Assembly (NCBI RefSeq): GCF_000025625.1
Contig: NC_013922.1
Location: 1 to 64,000 of the forward strand
Direction: 5' to 3'
Length of the DNA stretch: 64,000 nt
DNA from: Natrialba magadii ATCC 43099
GTDB taxonomy: Archaea; Halobacteriota; Halobacteria; Halobacteriales; Natrialbaceae
The position numbers were made by a program, and so were the translations under genes. Positions 42,653-55,003 of this stretch are shown piece after piece; position 1 is the first letter of the stretch; every line of letters begins with the position of its first letter. The notes below the pieces were generated by a model. It saw nothing but the letters and a program-made list of their open reading frames with translations. It did not search any database and had not been told where the DNA came from.

Positions 42653-43582
42653 ATGACCGATACGGAGGCGGCACAGTCGTCGAGCCTCCCCGATGACTGT
42701 GAGTCCGTCCGCGACGCGCTGATCGCGTGGTACGAAGACGACCATCGTGATTTCCCCTGGCGGCGGACCGACGACCCCTACGAAATCCTCGTCAGTGAGG
42801 TGATGAGCCAGCAGACCCAGCTCGGTCGCGTCGTCGAGGCCTGGGAGGAGTTCCTCGAGCGCTGGCCGTCGACGGCCGATCTCGAGGCCGCCGACCGGGC
42901 CGACGTCGTTGGCTTCTGGACGGGTCACAGCCTCGGGTACAACAACCGTGCGAAGTACCTCCACGAGGCCGCGGCGCAGGTCGAAACGGAGTACGGCGGA
43001 ACGTTTCCCGAGACGCCCGACGAACTACAGGAGCTGATGGGCGTCGGCCCCTACACGGCAAACGCCGTCGCCAGTTTCGCGTTCAACAACGGCGACGCCG
43101 TCGTCGATACGAACGTCAAGCGCGTCCTCTATCGCGCGTTCGATGTCCCGGACGACGACGCGGCGTTCGAGGAGGTGGCGACCGACCTCATGCCCGATGG
43201 TCGTTCCCGGGTCTGGAACAACGCGATCATGGAACTCGGTGGTGTCGCCTGCGAGCAGACGCCCTCGTGTGACGAGGCTGGCTGTCCGTGGCGCGAGTGG
43301 TGTTCGGCCTACGCCAGCGGCGACTTTACCGCACCTGACGTCCCGACGCAGCCCAGTTTCGAGGGGAGTCGTCGCCAGTTCCGTGGACGAATCATCTCGA
43401 CACTCAAGGAATACGACGAACTCGAACTCGATACACTCGGTCACCGGATCCGCGTCGACTACACGCCTGACGGTGAGTTCGGTCGCGAGTGGCTCCGCGG
43501 ACTCCTTTCGGACCTCGCAGACGACGAGTTAGTCGAGTTCGACGGCGACGGCGCAGACACTGTTGCACGACTTCGCCGCTAA
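42653..43582 (+). CDS. mutY: A/G-specific adenine DNA glycosylase (MutY-like)
   Basis: 309-residue HhH-GPD base-excision glycosylase, removing adenine opposite 8-oxoguanine. The catalytic Glu lies in VSEVMSQQTQ, the helix-hairpin-helix in LMGVGPYTANAVASF and the catalytic Asp in VVDTNVKRVL. An iron-sulfur cluster motif is at C-terminal CEQTPSC-DEAGC-PWREWC, with spacing 5-4-5 rather than the bacterial 6-2-5. The large NUDIX-like C-terminal domain of E. coli MutY is reduced to about 70 residues. The start ATG at 42653 gives a short acidic lead. Confidence 0.88.
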   Translation: MTDTEAAQSSSLPDDCESVRDALIAWYEDDHRDFPWRRTDDPYEILVSEVMSQQTQLGRVVEAWEEFLERWPSTADLEAADRADVVGFWTGHSLGYNNRAKYLHEAAAQVETEYGGTFPETPDELQELMGVGPYTANAVASFAFNNGDAVVDTNVKRVLYRAFDVPDDDAAFEEVATDLMPDGRSRVWNNAIMELGGVACEQTPSCDEAGCPWREWCSAYASGDFTAPDVPTQPSFEGSRRQFRGRIISTLKEYDELELDTLGHRIRVDYTPDGEFGREWLRGLLSDLADDELVEFDGDGADTVARLRR

Positions 43583-43724: not shown

Positions 43725-46463
43725 ATGCGAAGACGTGAACTACTTGCCGGAAGCGGTACCGTCGCAGCCATCGCCCTCTCCGGGTACACCGGTGCAGCGA
43801 CGGACAGCGCTCCCGGCAGTCAGGTGTCTCTCCCGTCTGACATCGAGTCCGTTTTTGAACTGGTTCCCGCAGAATCGACCATCGAGACGTCCGTTCGACA
43901 CATCGTCTACTCGCGTGTTGACGGCCAGGAATCAGAGCCTGGCTACCCTGGCGTCCACGGTGCCGTCGACGAGTTCGACGAAATCGACGCCGACGAGGTC
44001 GCTGAAACCGCTCTGGTCATCGGCGACGAAATGCAACTGGCCGCGATCACTGGCTCGTTCGAGCAGCCCGAGATCGGTGACAACGAAACTGAGGGCTGGG
44101 CCGTCGGCGAGGTCAATGGCGACCCGCTCGCAGCCGCCGATGGAAAACTGGTCATCGCACTCGGTGACGACAGCGACGACACCATCGACGCAGCCATCGC
44201 GACAGCAAACGGAGACGAGGCGTCCGTTCTCTCTGATTCCGACGTCATCAAGACGATGGTCGAACACCTCGATTCGATGTCGTACGTTACCATCGTCCCG
44301 GACGCGTCTGAAGTTTCACCTCCCGGACTCGACACCGAGGTGGTCGACGCGGTCGGCATCGGTCTCGAATCTCCACACGGCATTCGCAGCGACGATTCCA
44401 CGCTCGAAAATGGCTACGTGTTTCACCTGTCCTCAAGTGCGGCCGATGTCGACGACGAGTGGGTCCACGAACAACTCCGGCAACTCGAAGAGGGCGAGGT
44501 CCTCGAGGCGTCGATCGACCGTTCGGACGCCTTCATCCACGTCGACGCGGTCGTCGAACAACCACCAGAGCGGGACCGTGACGCCGCACCTGACGCAACC
44601 GTTCGTGTCCGTTCGAACGCCGACGAGGGTGTCGCGACGTTCGAACACACTGACGGTGAATCGATCGATGCCGACATGCTCGAGGTGTGGCAGAACGGCG
44701 ACCTCGCCGACGACCAGCTCGCCGACGAGTACACGAGATTTGCGGAGGGAGATACCTTCGAACTCGAGACGGGACCGATCGCCGACGTCGGACTGCGCTG
44801 GTTCGACGAGGACGAAGACGTCTATTACTACTACGGAACGACCACGGTCGGCAGGGAGTCGTTCGAGACGACCCACGACTACGATGCTGACACGGTCGAG
44901 ATTACCTACACTGGTGAGCGTGAGGCCGATCCCGAACTCCTCGAACTGGTTCACCGGACGGACGATGGTGCGAGCACCGATCGATCGGCGGTCGAGGGCC
45001 TGCGCTCGTTGACGGCGGGCGAGACGATCACGGTCGAAGACGTCACGCTGGGCGATCGGGTCTCGCTCGACCTGGCGGTGCCAGCCAATCCGAACAGGGG
45101 ACAACGGTCGCTTGCCTCCTATCGGATCCGGCCACCCCGGATGTTCCTCTCCAGTCACGGCGAAACTGTCACCGCAAGATACCGGGACGACCAGGACCGC
45201 GACGCCGATGAATTCCGCGTGCTGGCCGACGACGAACCGGCAGCGACCCAGTTCACCGACGTGACCGAGACGCTGTCGGATGGCGATGCCATCGAACTCG
45301 GCGAGGTAGACCACGGCACGCACATCGTCGTCGAGTGGCTCGAACCCGACGAGCCCGCGGTTGTCGCAGAACGGGTCGTCCGACCGAACGCTCGCGTGGA
45401 CCTCACGTACGACGACGGCGATGGAACCGTCACGATCGACCACGTCGAAGGCGTTGCGATCGACGCTGACGAACTCAAGTTACGGGCAGGTGACGATCCG
45501 ATGGCCGTACAGCCAGCCGATGAGTACGACACGTTCGAGCCCGGCGACAGCGTCACGGTCGAGTCCGAGCCGTTCGTGCAAGTCGAACTCGTCTGGGAGG
45601 GCCCAGAGGAGACGGAATACAGTATCGGTCGCACAACTGCTGGCCGCGACCTGCTCGACGCGGAGTACGACCACGATGCACGTGAGGTCGAACTTGTCTA
45701 CACTGGCAGTCAGCCTGCAGATCCGTCGTTCCTCTCGGTCACCCACAGACAGGACGGTCCTACCGATGCAGACGCCAATCGCTTCGAGCAGGCGTACGAG
45801 ACGTTGACCGATGGCGATAGCATCGTTCTCGAGGACGTCGCAATCGAGGACAGAATCACCGTCATGGTAGTTCAGGAGGGTGAAAACCACTCTTCTCGGC
45901 GCTCTCTCTTCCACTTCACACCGGAGCCGAACCGGTCGTTCCACTTCGATGACCGCGAAGATGGACTCGTTGCCGTCTACCGCGAGCAAACGGACCGAGA
46001 CGCCGATTCCTTCGAACTTCTGGTCGATGGCGAACCAGCCGAGACCCAGCCCGCGGATCGCCACGAGACATTGACTGTTGGTGACGAACTCGAGCTCGGT
46101 TCGTTCGATGCCGGAACCGAGCTCACCGTCCAGTGGGTCGTGCCTGACGAACCGCGGTCGGTCCGGAGTCACGTCGTCGTCCCGACTGTCGAGTTCGACA
46201 TCGAGTACGACGCAGACACCGACGAGGTAACCGTCGAACACGGTGGCGGTGATGCCATCGACGCTGACGATTTGGGCGTTATCGTCGAACCGACACGGCT
46301 CGATCCGGTCGGCTGGGACGAGTACGAAACCGTCTCCGAGGGCGATACGACGACGATTGACGCGATCGATGAGTCCAGTTCACACAGTGATCGCGACCCG
46401 ACGGTGGTGGCGGTCATGTACAGAGAGAACACCCATCTCACGTCCGAACGAATCGAGACCTAA
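43725..46463 (+). CDS. Large secreted protein with seven repeats in A-B-C-A-B-C-A order
   Basis: 912 residues. The N-terminus MRRRELLAGSG with a hydrophobic run to about residue 25 looks like a Tat signal without a lipobox. Residues 35-290 form a domain with DxVIGDEMQLAAITGSF-type strands and a segment VVDAVGIGLESPHG. Residues 302-908 are seven repeats of about 80-88 residues: A (about 302-378), B (386-470), C (475-553), A (560-640), B (650-732), C (740-820), A (826-908). Each has the frame xVxxxxxxGxxxDADxLxV ... ETLxDGDxxxLE. A-type repeats resemble the beta domain of archaeal type IV pilins (VTVEHGGGDAIDADDLGV). Function unknown; a cell-surface or secreted role is likely. Confidence 0.75.
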   Translation: MRRRELLAGSGTVAAIALSGYTGAATDSAPGSQVSLPSDIESVFELVPAESTIETSVRHIVYSRVDGQESEPGYPGVHGAVDEFDEIDADEVAETALVIGDEMQLAAITGSFEQPEIGDNETEGWAVGEVNGDPLAAADGKLVIALGDDSDDTIDAAIATANGDEASVLSDSDVIKTMVEHLDSMSYVTIVPDASEVSPPGLDTEVVDAVGIGLESPHGIRSDDSTLENGYVFHLSSSAADVDDEWVHEQLRQLEEGEVLEASIDRSDAFIHVDAVVEQPPERDRDAAPDATVRVRSNADEGVATFEHTDGESIDADMLEVWQNGDLADDQLADEYTRFAEGDTFELETGPIADVGLRWFDEDEDVYYYYGTTTVGRESFETTHDYDADTVEITYTGEREADPELLELVHRTDDGASTDRSAVEGLRSLTAGETITVEDVTLGDRVSLDLAVPANPNRGQRSLASYRIRPPRMFLSSHGETVTARYRDDQDRDADEFRVLADDEPAATQFTDVTETLSDGDAIELGEVDHGTHIVVEWLEPDEPAVVAERVVRPNARVDLTYDDGDGTVTIDHVEGVAIDADELKLRAGDDPMAVQPADEYDTFEPGDSVTVESEPFVQVELVWEGPEETEYSIGRTTAGRDLLDAEYDHDAREVELVYTGSQPADPSFLSVTHRQDGPTDADANRFEQAYETLTDGDSIVLEDVAIEDRITVMVVQEGENHSSRRSLFHFTPEPNRSFHFDDREDGLVAVYREQTDRDADSFELLVDGEPAETQPADRHETLTVGDELELGSFDAGTELTVQWVVPDEPRSVRSHVVVPTVEFDIEYDADTDEVTVEHGGGDAIDADDLGVIVEPTRLDPVGWDEYETVSEGDTTTIDAIDESSSHSDRDPTVVAVMYRENTHLTSERIET

Positions 46464-51352: not shown

Positions 51353-54300
51353 ATGAACGACTGGCTCGAGACTGCCATTCAGGCCGAGCCTTCCGTGCAG
51401 TCGTCCAGTGTCCCTTCCACAATTCGCGTCCTCGTTACCGGGTCGACCTCCCTGCGCGAGACTGTCTCGGAGACACTCGCAGCGAGCGACGTTGCCTCCG
51501 TAATCTCGCCCGCGGCCGAGACAGACGTGGCTGTCAGCGCTGACTCGAGTACCGAGCCACCACCACACTGCCTGCTCACCGACGACCTTGACTCACTTTC
51601 GGACATGGGTCTCCTCGAGGCACCCGAGGGAACTGTGGATTCTGCACCATCCGACCCATCCGAGATGTCCGGCCCAAACGAAGTATCCAACACGCCTGAA
51701 AGATCCGAAACATCCGAAACAGCTGAAACATCCGAAACAGCTGAAACATCTGAAACAGCTGAAACATCTGAAACAGCTGAAGCACTCGAGGCATCCGAAC
51801 CCCCCATAACTCCTGAAACACCCGGCCCACTCGAGTACCCCATCCTCTACGTCTCTCCCGACGATTCCGAGCGAACGGCCACTGACTCGGAGCACATCTC
51901 ACTGTCGTTTGACAGTGAGACAGCCGACGCGACGGATTCGACGACGGGATCACAGACCGAGTCCGCAGAGCCGGCATCGTCAACCACGGCGACGGCCGAG
52001 CCTTCTGTCCCCTCACCACCTCCACTCGAGATCGTTCCACGAGCCATACTGCAGTCCCGTCGCCAACTCGAACACCGGTTACAGCGGACGGTCCAGTTCG
52101 CCGCGCTGACCGAGACAGTCACGGCCCAGCGCGAGTGGTATCGCTCGTTACTCGAACGCTCTGCTGACCTGTTGTTCGTCCTCGACGAGACGGGCGAAAT
52201 CACGTACGTCAGTCCGTCGGCGGCAGACGACTCGAGTGCAGACGAGCCGACCGGTGCGACCGCGGACGACTTGCAGACACTGTGTGGGACCCACTTCCTC
52301 GACAAGGTCCACCCCGACGATACCGACGACGTCCGTGACGCGATCGCAGCCGTCAGAGCGGCCGAAATCGGATCGGCGGAGGCGGTCGAGTACCGGTGTC
52401 GAACCAGCGCGGATACAGAAACCTGGGGGGTCTACGAGGCGACGCTAACGAACCGACTCGACGACGACCCGATCGACGGTATCGTCGTCTCAGTCCGAGA
52501 CGTCACCGAGTATCACCGCGTCGAACGGGAACTGGACGAGTCGTTCCGTCGCGTGACGGATGCGTTCTTCGCCCTCGATGCCGACTGGCGGTTTACCTAC
52601 GTCAACGAACAGGCTGCAGCGACGCTCGATGCCGACAAGGAAACACTGCTCGGCGAACCGATCCTGGACGTCTTTCCGGAGATGGTCGGCACTGACTTCC
52701 AGCGAGCTGCACTCGAGGCGATGGAGGAGCAGGAACTGCGGTCGCTCGAACGCTACTACGGTCCCTACGACCGCTGGATCGAGGCCCGAATCTATCCGTC
52801 ATCGACCGGCGTCTCCGTCTACTTCCGCGACGTGACCGATCGTATCGAGCGCGAACGCAAACTCGAGGTCCGCACTGAACGTCTGCAGGCAATCGTCAAC
52901 AACGCGCCGATCATCCTCTTTACGCTCGACCCCGACGGGACAGTGACGCTGGCCGAAGGGCAGGGACTCGAGCGGCTCGATACGGTCCCGGAGGAAGTCG
53001 TCGGACGGTCCGTCCTCGATCTCTTCGACGACGACCCGAAGGTCCGCGCCGATTTCCACGCCGCACTCGAGGGCTACCCGATTCACGTCCAGAACGAAGT
53101 CGACGGGCAGATACTCGACGCCTGGTGTCGGCCGATTACAGTCGACAGGGGCAGCGGGGAGGCCGTCTCCGGCCCAGCCGACGATGACCAATCCGAGATC
53201 GAACGGATCATCGGCACCGCTGTCGACGTCACCGAGCGCGTCCAGTATCAGGAGACACTCAATGGCCTTCACGACGCCACGAGCCACCTGCTCACCGTCG
53301 AATCGAAGCAGGCCGCCTGTGAGTACATTGTCGACGTTGCCGCTGACGTACTCGACCTCAATGCCTGCGTCTACCGGTTTGACGATCAGCAAAACGAACT
53401 CGTCCGGGCCGCCTACTCGACCGCGTTCGAATCCCTTGCTGGCCCGCCACCACGGCTCCAGCCGGGTGAATGTCTCTCCTGGGAGGCGTTCGTTTCGGAG
53501 ACGCCGTCCGTCTTCGACGATGTGTCGGAGGTTGGCGGTGTGTACGATTCTGAGACTGACGTCAGAAGTACACTCTTCGTCCCGCTTGGCCAACACGGCG
53601 TGCTCGTCGCCACTGCAGCCGAGCCGAACACGTACGACGACGAGACGGTCGAACTGGCCCAGCTATTCGCCCGTACCGCGGAGGCGGCACTCGACCGTAT
53701 CGGCCGAACGCGACGGCTACACGAGCGCGAGCGCGAGCTGAAACAACAGAACGACCGTCTAGAGCGCCTCAATGCGGCAAACCGTGTCCGCCAGGAAATC
53801 GAACAACTGCTGTTGATGGCCGATTCGCGATCCGAAATCGAGCAGGGAATTTGCGACCGGCTCGCTGAACTCGACGGCTGCTCGATGGCCTGGATCGGTG
53901 CGCCGGATCCGAGCGGGAACGAACTCCGCATGCGAGCCCAGGCTGGACGCGACTACGGGTATCTCGACGCCATCACCGTGACGACAGTCGACAACTCGGC
54001 CGCCGAGCCGTCGGGCCGAACCGCACGCACGCGGACACCCACCGCTGTCGACAATATCGCAGACGCCGTCCACGATGGCGACTGGCGCGCCGAAGCTCTC
54101 TCGCAGACGTTCCAGTCGGTGTACGCGGTTCCACTCGTCTACGACGATTTCCTCTACGGCGTGCTCTCGCTCTACGCCGACGACCGGAACGCCTTCGACG
54201 ATCGATTCCGCGAGATGCTCACCGAACTCGGTGAGACGATCGCCTACTCGATCGACGCCGTCAAACGCAGACGCGCCGCTACCGACGACACCCGTACCGA

Positions 54301-55003
54301 AGTCGAACTCGAGATCGACCGTGGCTCGCTTTTCGGTGCCCTCGCGACTCACCTCGACGCGGCGGTCGAACTCGAGGGCGCGACGGCTGGAACGGACGAG
54401 ACGGTCGTCTTCGTGTCCGTGGATACCGCAGCTGAGGACGACGCTACTGTATCGGGAACGGCGGCTGATCGCTTCGATACAGACGAGTTGACGTCCATCA
54501 CGGGTATCGTCGATAGCTCCGTCATCGCCCGTTCAGAAGGGAAGACGCTTCTCCAGCTCCGGATTGTCACTCCCTTTATCGGCTCGGTCGTCGATGCACA
54601 GGGTGGCACGCTTCGATCGGTCTCTGCTGCGGCGGCCGAGCCAACGCGGGCCCGACTCGGCGTCTCCGACGCTGTCGAGATTCGCGACATTATCTCGGGA
54701 CTCAACCGAAACGGGATCGACGCCACGATGATCGCCCGACGCGACCAGCCTGCAGAGACGCCGGTGGCACTCGATGCGGCCAGTCGACGTGTGCTGTTGA
54801 ACCAGCTGACCGAGCGCCAGCGCGAGGTCGTCCAGACGGCCTACCACGGTGGGTTCTTCGATTGGCCGCGTGAAACGACCGGTGAAGAGATCGCAGACTC
54901 ACTCGACATTTCCTCACCGGCGTTTCATAAACACGTTCGCGCGTCGGAGGCCAAACTCTTCGGGACACTGTTCGATGACGTGTTTTCGACAGGGGATGGT
55001 TAA
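51353..55003 (+). CDS. Multi-sensor Bat-type transcription regulator (REC-like, PAS, GAF, HTH_10)
   Basis: 1216 residues. Residues 22-50, 72-80 and 161-168 read as a degenerate receiver domain broken by a low-complexity insert (about 95-150) with four TSETAE units. PAS domains follow at about 260-390, 392-500 and 505-632, then GAF domains at about 640-785 and 815-970, a bacterio-opsin-activator-type domain at 985-1130 and an HTH_10 DNA-binding domain at 1148-1205 (LTERQREVVQTAYHGGFFDWPRETTGEEIADSLDIS in parts). Proteins of this plan regulate light-, oxygen- or redox-linked genes such as bop. No kinase domain is present. A HalOD1 gene follows 107 bases downstream. Confidence 0.9.
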   Translation: MNDWLETAIQAEPSVQSSSVPSTIRVLVTGSTSLRETVSETLAASDVASVISPAAETDVAVSADSSTEPPPHCLLTDDLDSLSDMGLLEAPEGTVDSAPSDPSEMSGPNEVSNTPERSETSETAETSETAETSETAETSETAEALEASEPPITPETPGPLEYPILYVSPDDSERTATDSEHISLSFDSETADATDSTTGSQTESAEPASSTTATAEPSVPSPPPLEIVPRAILQSRRQLEHRLQRTVQFAALTETVTAQREWYRSLLERSADLLFVLDETGEITYVSPSAADDSSADEPTGATADDLQTLCGTHFLDKVHPDDTDDVRDAIAAVRAAEIGSAEAVEYRCRTSADTETWGVYEATLTNRLDDDPIDGIVVSVRDVTEYHRVERELDESFRRVTDAFFALDADWRFTYVNEQAAATLDADKETLLGEPILDVFPEMVGTDFQRAALEAMEEQELRSLERYYGPYDRWIEARIYPSSTGVSVYFRDVTDRIERERKLEVRTERLQAIVNNAPIILFTLDPDGTVTLAEGQGLERLDTVPEEVVGRSVLDLFDDDPKVRADFHAALEGYPIHVQNEVDGQILDAWCRPITVDRGSGEAVSGPADDDQSEIERIIGTAVDVTERVQYQETLNGLHDATSHLLTVESKQAACEYIVDVAADVLDLNACVYRFDDQQNELVRAAYSTAFESLAGPPPRLQPGECLSWEAFVSETPSVFDDVSEVGGVYDSETDVRSTLFVPLGQHGVLVATAAEPNTYDDETVELAQLFARTAEAALDRIGRTRRLHERERELKQQNDRLERLNAANRVRQEIEQLLLMADSRSEIEQGICDRLAELDGCSMAWIGAPDPSGNELRMRAQAGRDYGYLDAITVTTVDNSAAEPSGRTARTRTPTAVDNIADAVHDGDWRAEALSQTFQSVYAVPLVYDDFLYGVLSLYADDRNAFDDRFREMLTELGETIAYSIDAVKRRRAATDDTRTEVELEIDRGSLFGALATHLDAAVELEGATAGTDETVVFVSVDTAAEDDATVSGTAADRFDTDELTSITGIVDSSVIARSEGKTLLQLRIVTPFIGSVVDAQGGTLRSVSAAAAEPTRARLGVSDAVEIRDIISGLNRNGIDATMIARRDQPAETPVALDAASRRVLLNQLTERQREVVQTAYHGGFFDWPRETTGEEIADSLDISSPAFHKHVRASEAKLFGTLFDDVFSTGDG
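51704..51782 (+). repeat. 18-bp in-frame coding repeat (TSETAE units)
   Basis: About four copies of an 18-bp unit built from GAAACATCYGAAACAGCT. It keeps the frame and lengthens a linker inside the degenerate receiver domain. Confidence 0.85.

Follow-up and report, generated by a model that had tools for sequence, protein, structure and literature searches.

A putative haloarchaeal surface protein combining a TP0453-like N-terminal domain with seven modules of archaeal pilin type

We analyzed a 912-amino-acid protein encoded in a window of 64,000 nucleotides (positions 1 to 64,000 of contig NC_013922.1) from the genome of Natrialba magadii ATCC 43099 (4 contigs, 4,443,643 bases). The computational analysis revealed seven modules in the order A-B-C-A-B-C-A, their homology to archaeal pilins, the duplication of an ABC block, unequal recombination at cognate modules (in one case) and the absence of the lipobox cysteine from most seven-module members of the family. 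With a probability of roughly 0.6, we regard the product as a Tat-exported surface protein of Halobacteria, consisting of a TP0453-like N-terminal domain (N-domain) and a stalk of seven pilin-type Ig-like domains. We found no description of this protein family in the literature searched, and where annotation was visible, its members were labeled "hypothetical protein." An NCBIfam search of the protein gave no family at E values of up to 10, and a Pfam match to DUF6417 (E, 0.12) was discarded as chance.

Gene layout, constraint and neighborhood

The protein comprises a signal region (residues 1 to 25), one domain (residues 36 to 288) and seven modules of 84 to 93 residues (residues 289 to 912). 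The features are as follows.

42653..43582 (+): upstream gene of a MutY-like glycosylase; a conserved neighbor in part of the family, outside the system
43725..46463 (+): whole gene; ATG start, 912 amino acids plus stop; full-length orthologues exist
43725..43799 (+): Tat-type signal region (RRREL...ALSGYTG), residues 1-25; from the sequence and orthologous signal regions; no class III (pilin) signal
43785..43787 (+): TAC codon (Tyr21) at the position of the lipobox cysteine of relatives; from the sequence and aligned relatives
43830..44588 (+): N-domain, residues 36-288; TP0453-like fold, no Pfam family
44589..44852 (+): module A1, residues 289-376; cognate alignment; closest solved structure, the pilin 8fj5_A
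44853..45131 (+): module B1, residues 377-469; cognate alignment
45132..45383 (+): module C1, residues 470-553; cognate alignment
45384..45644 (+): module A2, residues 554-640; cognate alignment
45645..45920 (+): module B2, residues 641-732; cognate alignment
45921..46181 (+): module C2, residues 733-819; cognate alignment
46182..46460 (+): module A3, residues 820-912; terminal cap, nearest to true pilins; best Pilin_N stretch, 819-857

Comparison with four Natrialba orthologues gave dN/dS values of 0.23 to 0.27, indicating purifying selection. Two other genomes of the same genus (G004 and G005) retained only C-terminal remnants, of 164 and 79 residues, between the same neighbor genes. In locus L070 (832-3833, minus strand), a seven-module gene was split near the B1/C1 border into two frames that overlap, a split that may reflect a sequencing error, decay or phase variation. 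The gene is under selection where it is retained, yet the remnants and the split frame show that it is dispensable.

Synteny with the MutY-like gene was found in the genus and in some other genomes and is not family-wide. The remaining neighbors encode CitG, DUF447, a methylase, a gamma-glutamyltranspeptidase, a regulator and two products without a Pfam family; no pilus gene that could be a partner was found among the neighbors in the window. The window also contains, at 51353-55003 (+), a PAS/GAF regulator of 1216 residues with BAT and HTH_10 domains.

The A-B-C-A-B-C-A super-repeat

An earlier note, made from the sequence alone, had described seven C-terminal repeats in this order. The order was confirmed, with a module length of 84 to 93 residues instead of the 80 to 88 proposed. 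We compared the protein with itself (BLOSUM62, 40-residue windows, offsets of 30 to 699), using as a control 20 shuffles of residues 271 to 912. The expected repeat signal was present, with peaks at offsets of 266 (score, 114), 264 (103), 265 (77) and 531 (69), against 49 for the best shuffle. Offsets corresponding to the spacing of neighbors were weaker (87, with a score of 63, and 177 to 180, with scores of 41 to 65).

Pairwise alignment, in which cognate modules scored far above shuffled sequences, agreed with the proposed pairing of repeats 2 and 5 (B1-B2; 32% identity; z, 13 to 16.5) and of repeats 3 and 6 (C1-C2; 47% identity; z, 19 to 20), while directly adjoining modules had z values of 0.8 to 6.3. 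Repeats 1, 4 and 7 had been expected to resemble one another most, which holds for A1-A2 (36% identity; z, 11.5 to 13.3) and not for A3, whose best match was A2 (z, 8.0 to 8.4), followed by B2 (5.8 to 7.0), with A1 reaching only 4.5 to 5.5.

In a tree of 334 modules taken from proteins with four or seven of them (supports are FastTree values), the repeats grouped by type, and neighbors (1-2-3) did not group. Together with the equivalents from close four-module forms, B1 and B2 made up a pure group (82/82; support, 0.998), as did C1 and C2 (82/82; 0.986) and, with the first A of those forms, A1 and A2 (82/82; 0.767). A3 fell with their last A (44/44), with a support of just 0.058; the three A positions were not one clade in this tree. 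In a separate tree of 187 A copies, A3 sat beside pilins and single-A proteins. First and last A modules of distant four-module paralogues were placed inconsistently, with weak supports. Judged from these alignments and trees, the seventh module appears as a distinct cap.

Relatives and growth by blocks

We counted 103 distinct ORFs with module matches in 100 loci, of which 38 were ABCABCA and 17 ABCA. Another 39 (N+A proteins, pilins and a number of fragments) had a single A, and the rest were five ABCCCA or ABCCCB proteins, one AAA protein, one CA remnant and the two halves of the split L070. Two proteins were ABCCCB, in one of which (L076/L177) the last module was called pilin-like by another profile. 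Twelve N-domain-only Tat proteins add to these 103 ORFs. Module counts of 0, 1, 4 and 7 dominate, and 3 and 6 also occur. By architecture, the relatives form a ladder within Halobacteria (N, N+A, N+ABCA and N+ABCABCA), which is not strict, given the exceptions of the five ABCCC(A/B) proteins and the AAA protein. The source genome itself also holds a four-module paralogue (L002). In a phylum sample (E of up to 1e-12), 16 of 392 genomes had matches, all in the order to which the window belongs, and in an order sample (E of up to 1e-8), 84 of 392 did, single-module pilin matches included.

Two further arrangements were observed. The C module alone was multiplied (A-B-C-C-C-A) at L017:391-2952 (+) and in L075-L078, and diverged genes for N+A lipoproteins stood in tandem, two to four per array, at L165:7302-13127 (-), L167:5207-9638 (+) and L168:8216-10879 (-).

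One pair of genomes records the loss of a block. Over 620 residues, the ABCA protein of G341 (L069) shares 79% identity with the ABCABCA protein of its genus mate G315 (L050). Up to column 72, the single C module of L069 resembled C1 of L050 (32 C1-only versus 2 C2-only matches), and after this column it resembled C2 (17 C2-only versus 5 C1-only), a switch reached in 0 of 10,000 permutations. The pattern was repeated against L057 (27 versus 1, then 18 versus 1). This chimera is evidence, from one case, of unequal recombination, by which L069 lost one exact ABC unit through an exchange within C; such a loss explains why module counts step by three. The reading frame of L069 diverges from its relatives near the end, and therefore this copy may be decaying. 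The block duplication of an ABC unit suggested in the earlier note is thus borne out by the self-comparison, the trees, the existence of ABCA relatives and a relative lacking exactly one ABC block.

Modules of archaeal pilin type

In a Pfam search, three stretches of the protein matched Pilin_N (PF07790) above the cutoff (E, 3.4e-11). A profile of ten seven-module orthologues had, among PDB sequences (E of up to 1), a sole match, 8fj5_A from the Haloferax volcanii pilin/pilus (E, 4.1e-6), at residues 826 to 900, i.e., in A3. The same structure came first when A1 was aligned with VIA-align (Z, 10.6; root mean square deviation [RMSD], 2.7; 91 residues; 20% identity). In profile-profile comparisons with 13 pilin domains, all modules exceeded their controls, with scores of 109 (A3), 79 (A2), 63 (A1), 69 (B1 and B2), 41 (C2) and 34 (C1, the weakest pilin match, with a probability of 82%); the best of 20 column shuffles per module scored 15 to 20 (at most 20.2), reversed profiles scored at most 12.3 and the N-domain profile 12.7.

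Taken together, sequence profiles and predicted folds identify all seven modules as Ig-like domains of the type found in archaeal type IV pilins. The resemblance to pilins, which had been suggested for the A repeats, is backed by four lines of evidence and also covers B and C. A profile-profile comparison of A3 with C1 gave no match, so that on pairwise evidence alone a simple shared origin of all the modules is disfavored, although both match pilins. The available text of PMC7347861 describes an Ig-like domain common to archaeal pilins and archaellins. The AlphaFold model of the full protein had a mean pLDDT of 79.3 and a pTM of 0.47, and with such a pTM a rigid rod is not predicted.

Signal region and anchor

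The signal region contains RRREL followed by a hydrophobic stretch, which we take to match the twin-arginine (Tat) rule; Pfam TAT_signal was not reported for the protein at E values of up to 10. This Tat-like signal supports the earlier description of the protein as secreted. Counted by eye, the lipobox cysteine was present in 12/12 N-only proteins, in all 19 N+A proteins with a visible signal and in 5 of 6 close four-module forms. Of the 11 distant four-module forms in the tree, 9 had a visible signal, and 1 of these 9 carried the cysteine. It was found in two of the 38 seven-module forms (L009 and L064), the other 36 being without it. Natrialba proteins have Tyr at this position. The Tat-type signal is common to this protein and the haloarchaeal Tat lipoproteins treated in the available portion of PMC2945643, and the shorter relatives retain the lipobox, whereas here Tyr21 replaces the cysteine. 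The same portion reports Haloferax Tat lipoproteins with a Cys-to-Ser change that were unprocessed and were released in some cases and cell bound in others.

Linkage to pilin genes

One reading, which we consider unlikely, is that the protein is a pilus-associated factor whose pilin-like modules attach to the filament or to its subunits, so that it would serve type IV pili as an assembly factor, cap or surface receptor. The closeness of A3 to real pilins is in its favor, and so are two gene arrangements. At L145:8073-10764 (-), three type IV pilin genes are followed on the same strand by an N-domain-only Tat lipoprotein, whose start, judged by its RR signal, lies ca. 0.2 kb past the last pilin stop, an order that may indicate a functional link of N-domain lipoproteins with pili. 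In L061, and likewise in record L116, a pilin gene is convergent to the seven-module gene. However, such linkage was rare. Using a regular expression for class III signals written for this analysis, on fetched flanks of mostly ca. 0.7 to 1.5 kb, we detected a pilin-like signal next to a single one (L061) of the 38 seven-module genes and next to none of the 22 four- or six-module genes. Among 36 enlarged loci, the only one in which a pilin gene adjoined the family gene was L145.

A bolder scenario, to which we give still less credit, is that in Halobacteria the outer domain of type IV pilins came off its helix and was joined, in a protein exported by Tat, to the C-terminal side of a TP0453-like domain that faces lipids. 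Expanded three modules at a time (1, 4, 7), it would have given a pilus-mimicking stalk that binds, on the cell surface, either pili or their subunits, its length tuned by unequal recombination.

The N-terminal domain

A model of the N-domain built from 53 aligned members had a pLDDT of 86.5 and a pTM of 0.85. The Treponema pallidum lipoprotein TP0453 ranked first both by Foldseek (E, 1.9e-7) and by VIA-align (Z, 11.1; RMSD, 4.6; 206 residues), and the next fold was RseB (Z, 6.5). Across the TP0453 structures 3k8j, 3k8g, 3k8h and 3k8i, the fold was alike over ca. 200 residues (Z, 10.7 to 11.1), with ca. 10% identity, and TP0453 has no pilin-like stalk. A Pfam search of the 53 members gave no family; scattered weak matches (best E, 0.019; one or two of the 53 members each) were discarded as chance. 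Among PDB sequences (E of up to 1), the N-domain profile matched no TP0453 chain and no related sequence, and its best match, a beta-ketothiolase (E, 0.021), was likewise discarded. TP0453 reportedly inserts into membranes by amphipathic helices. Haloarchaea are not known to have the membrane type relevant to TP0453, and hence only the fold is common to both.

It is conceivable, at about the same low probability as a docking role on pili, that the N-domain is the working part, which would sense the envelope or handle lipids or lipoproteins, and that the repeats are a mere spacer. The TP0453 fold and the weaker matches to RseB, an envelope-stress sensor, would fit this, as would the 12 N-only Tat lipoproteins and the finding that, in the class sample, 83 of 292 genomes encode an N-domain, either by itself or joined to modules. 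Nevertheless, the repeats were constrained at least as much as the N-domain (dN/dS, 0.21 to 0.24 versus 0.29 to 0.35), and a common fold proves no function.

Alternatives for the modules

It is very improbable that the likeness of the modules to pilins reflects just a common beta-sandwich and haloarchaeal acidic composition. Foldseek of the whole model did list fibronectin-type and cytokine receptor arrays first, which we rejected as relatives (query TM-scores were mostly <0.15) and attribute to a common arrangement, not kinship, but the sequence profiles match pilins specifically, and the signal is abolished by column shuffles and reversals and absent with the N-domain profile. That the protein is itself a pilin or pilus subunit, as the Pilin_N match might suggest, is already contradicted by its Tat-like signal, its 912 residues in seven modules and the missing helix part, since its best Pilin_N stretch (residues 819 to 857) starts at position 37 of the profile (37 to 76 of 78), where a true pilin (L088) covers positions 1 to 76.

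Comparison with known systems and significance

The modules have the Ig-like beta-sandwich of archaeal type IV pilins (PF07790; 8fj5), to which they are homologous by sequence profile and fold. In contrast to these small one-domain subunits, the protein has seven domains per chain, a different N-terminal domain, neither a class III signal nor the hydrophobic N-terminal helix and no consistent association with pilin genes. Fibrillar adhesins with repeated stalk domains, as presented in the available text of PMC9210967, likewise carry repeated Ig-like domains on an exported protein. Compared with what that text describes, the protein has no recognized adhesive domain or cell wall anchor, and its modules are of archaeal pilin type, in a three-module super-repeat. 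In the Pfam searches, Pilin_N was the only family above the cutoff, and the N-domain had none. The adhesin or pilus-associated role proposed in the earlier note would be a candidate function.

According to the reading that we prefer, a Tat-exported surface protein with a pilin-type stalk, the protein would be exported by Tat to the cell surface, where the TP0453-like N-domain, ancestrally lipid tethered, would bear the seven-module stalk. This stalk may reach out from the membrane across or past the S-layer, ending in the pilin-like A3, and could serve as an adhesin or spacer where the cell touches other cells, surfaces or pili. If the lipobox cysteine is missing, the protein would be held by its uncleaved signal or released.

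If this is true, the outer domain of a pilus subunit has been reused outside the filament as the unit from which a large surface protein is assembled. Through intermediates with 0, 1, 4, 6 and 7 modules and a recombination event caught in one genome, this stepwise growth can be followed in present-day genomes, and the family would be a testable candidate for mediating surface contacts in haloarchaea.
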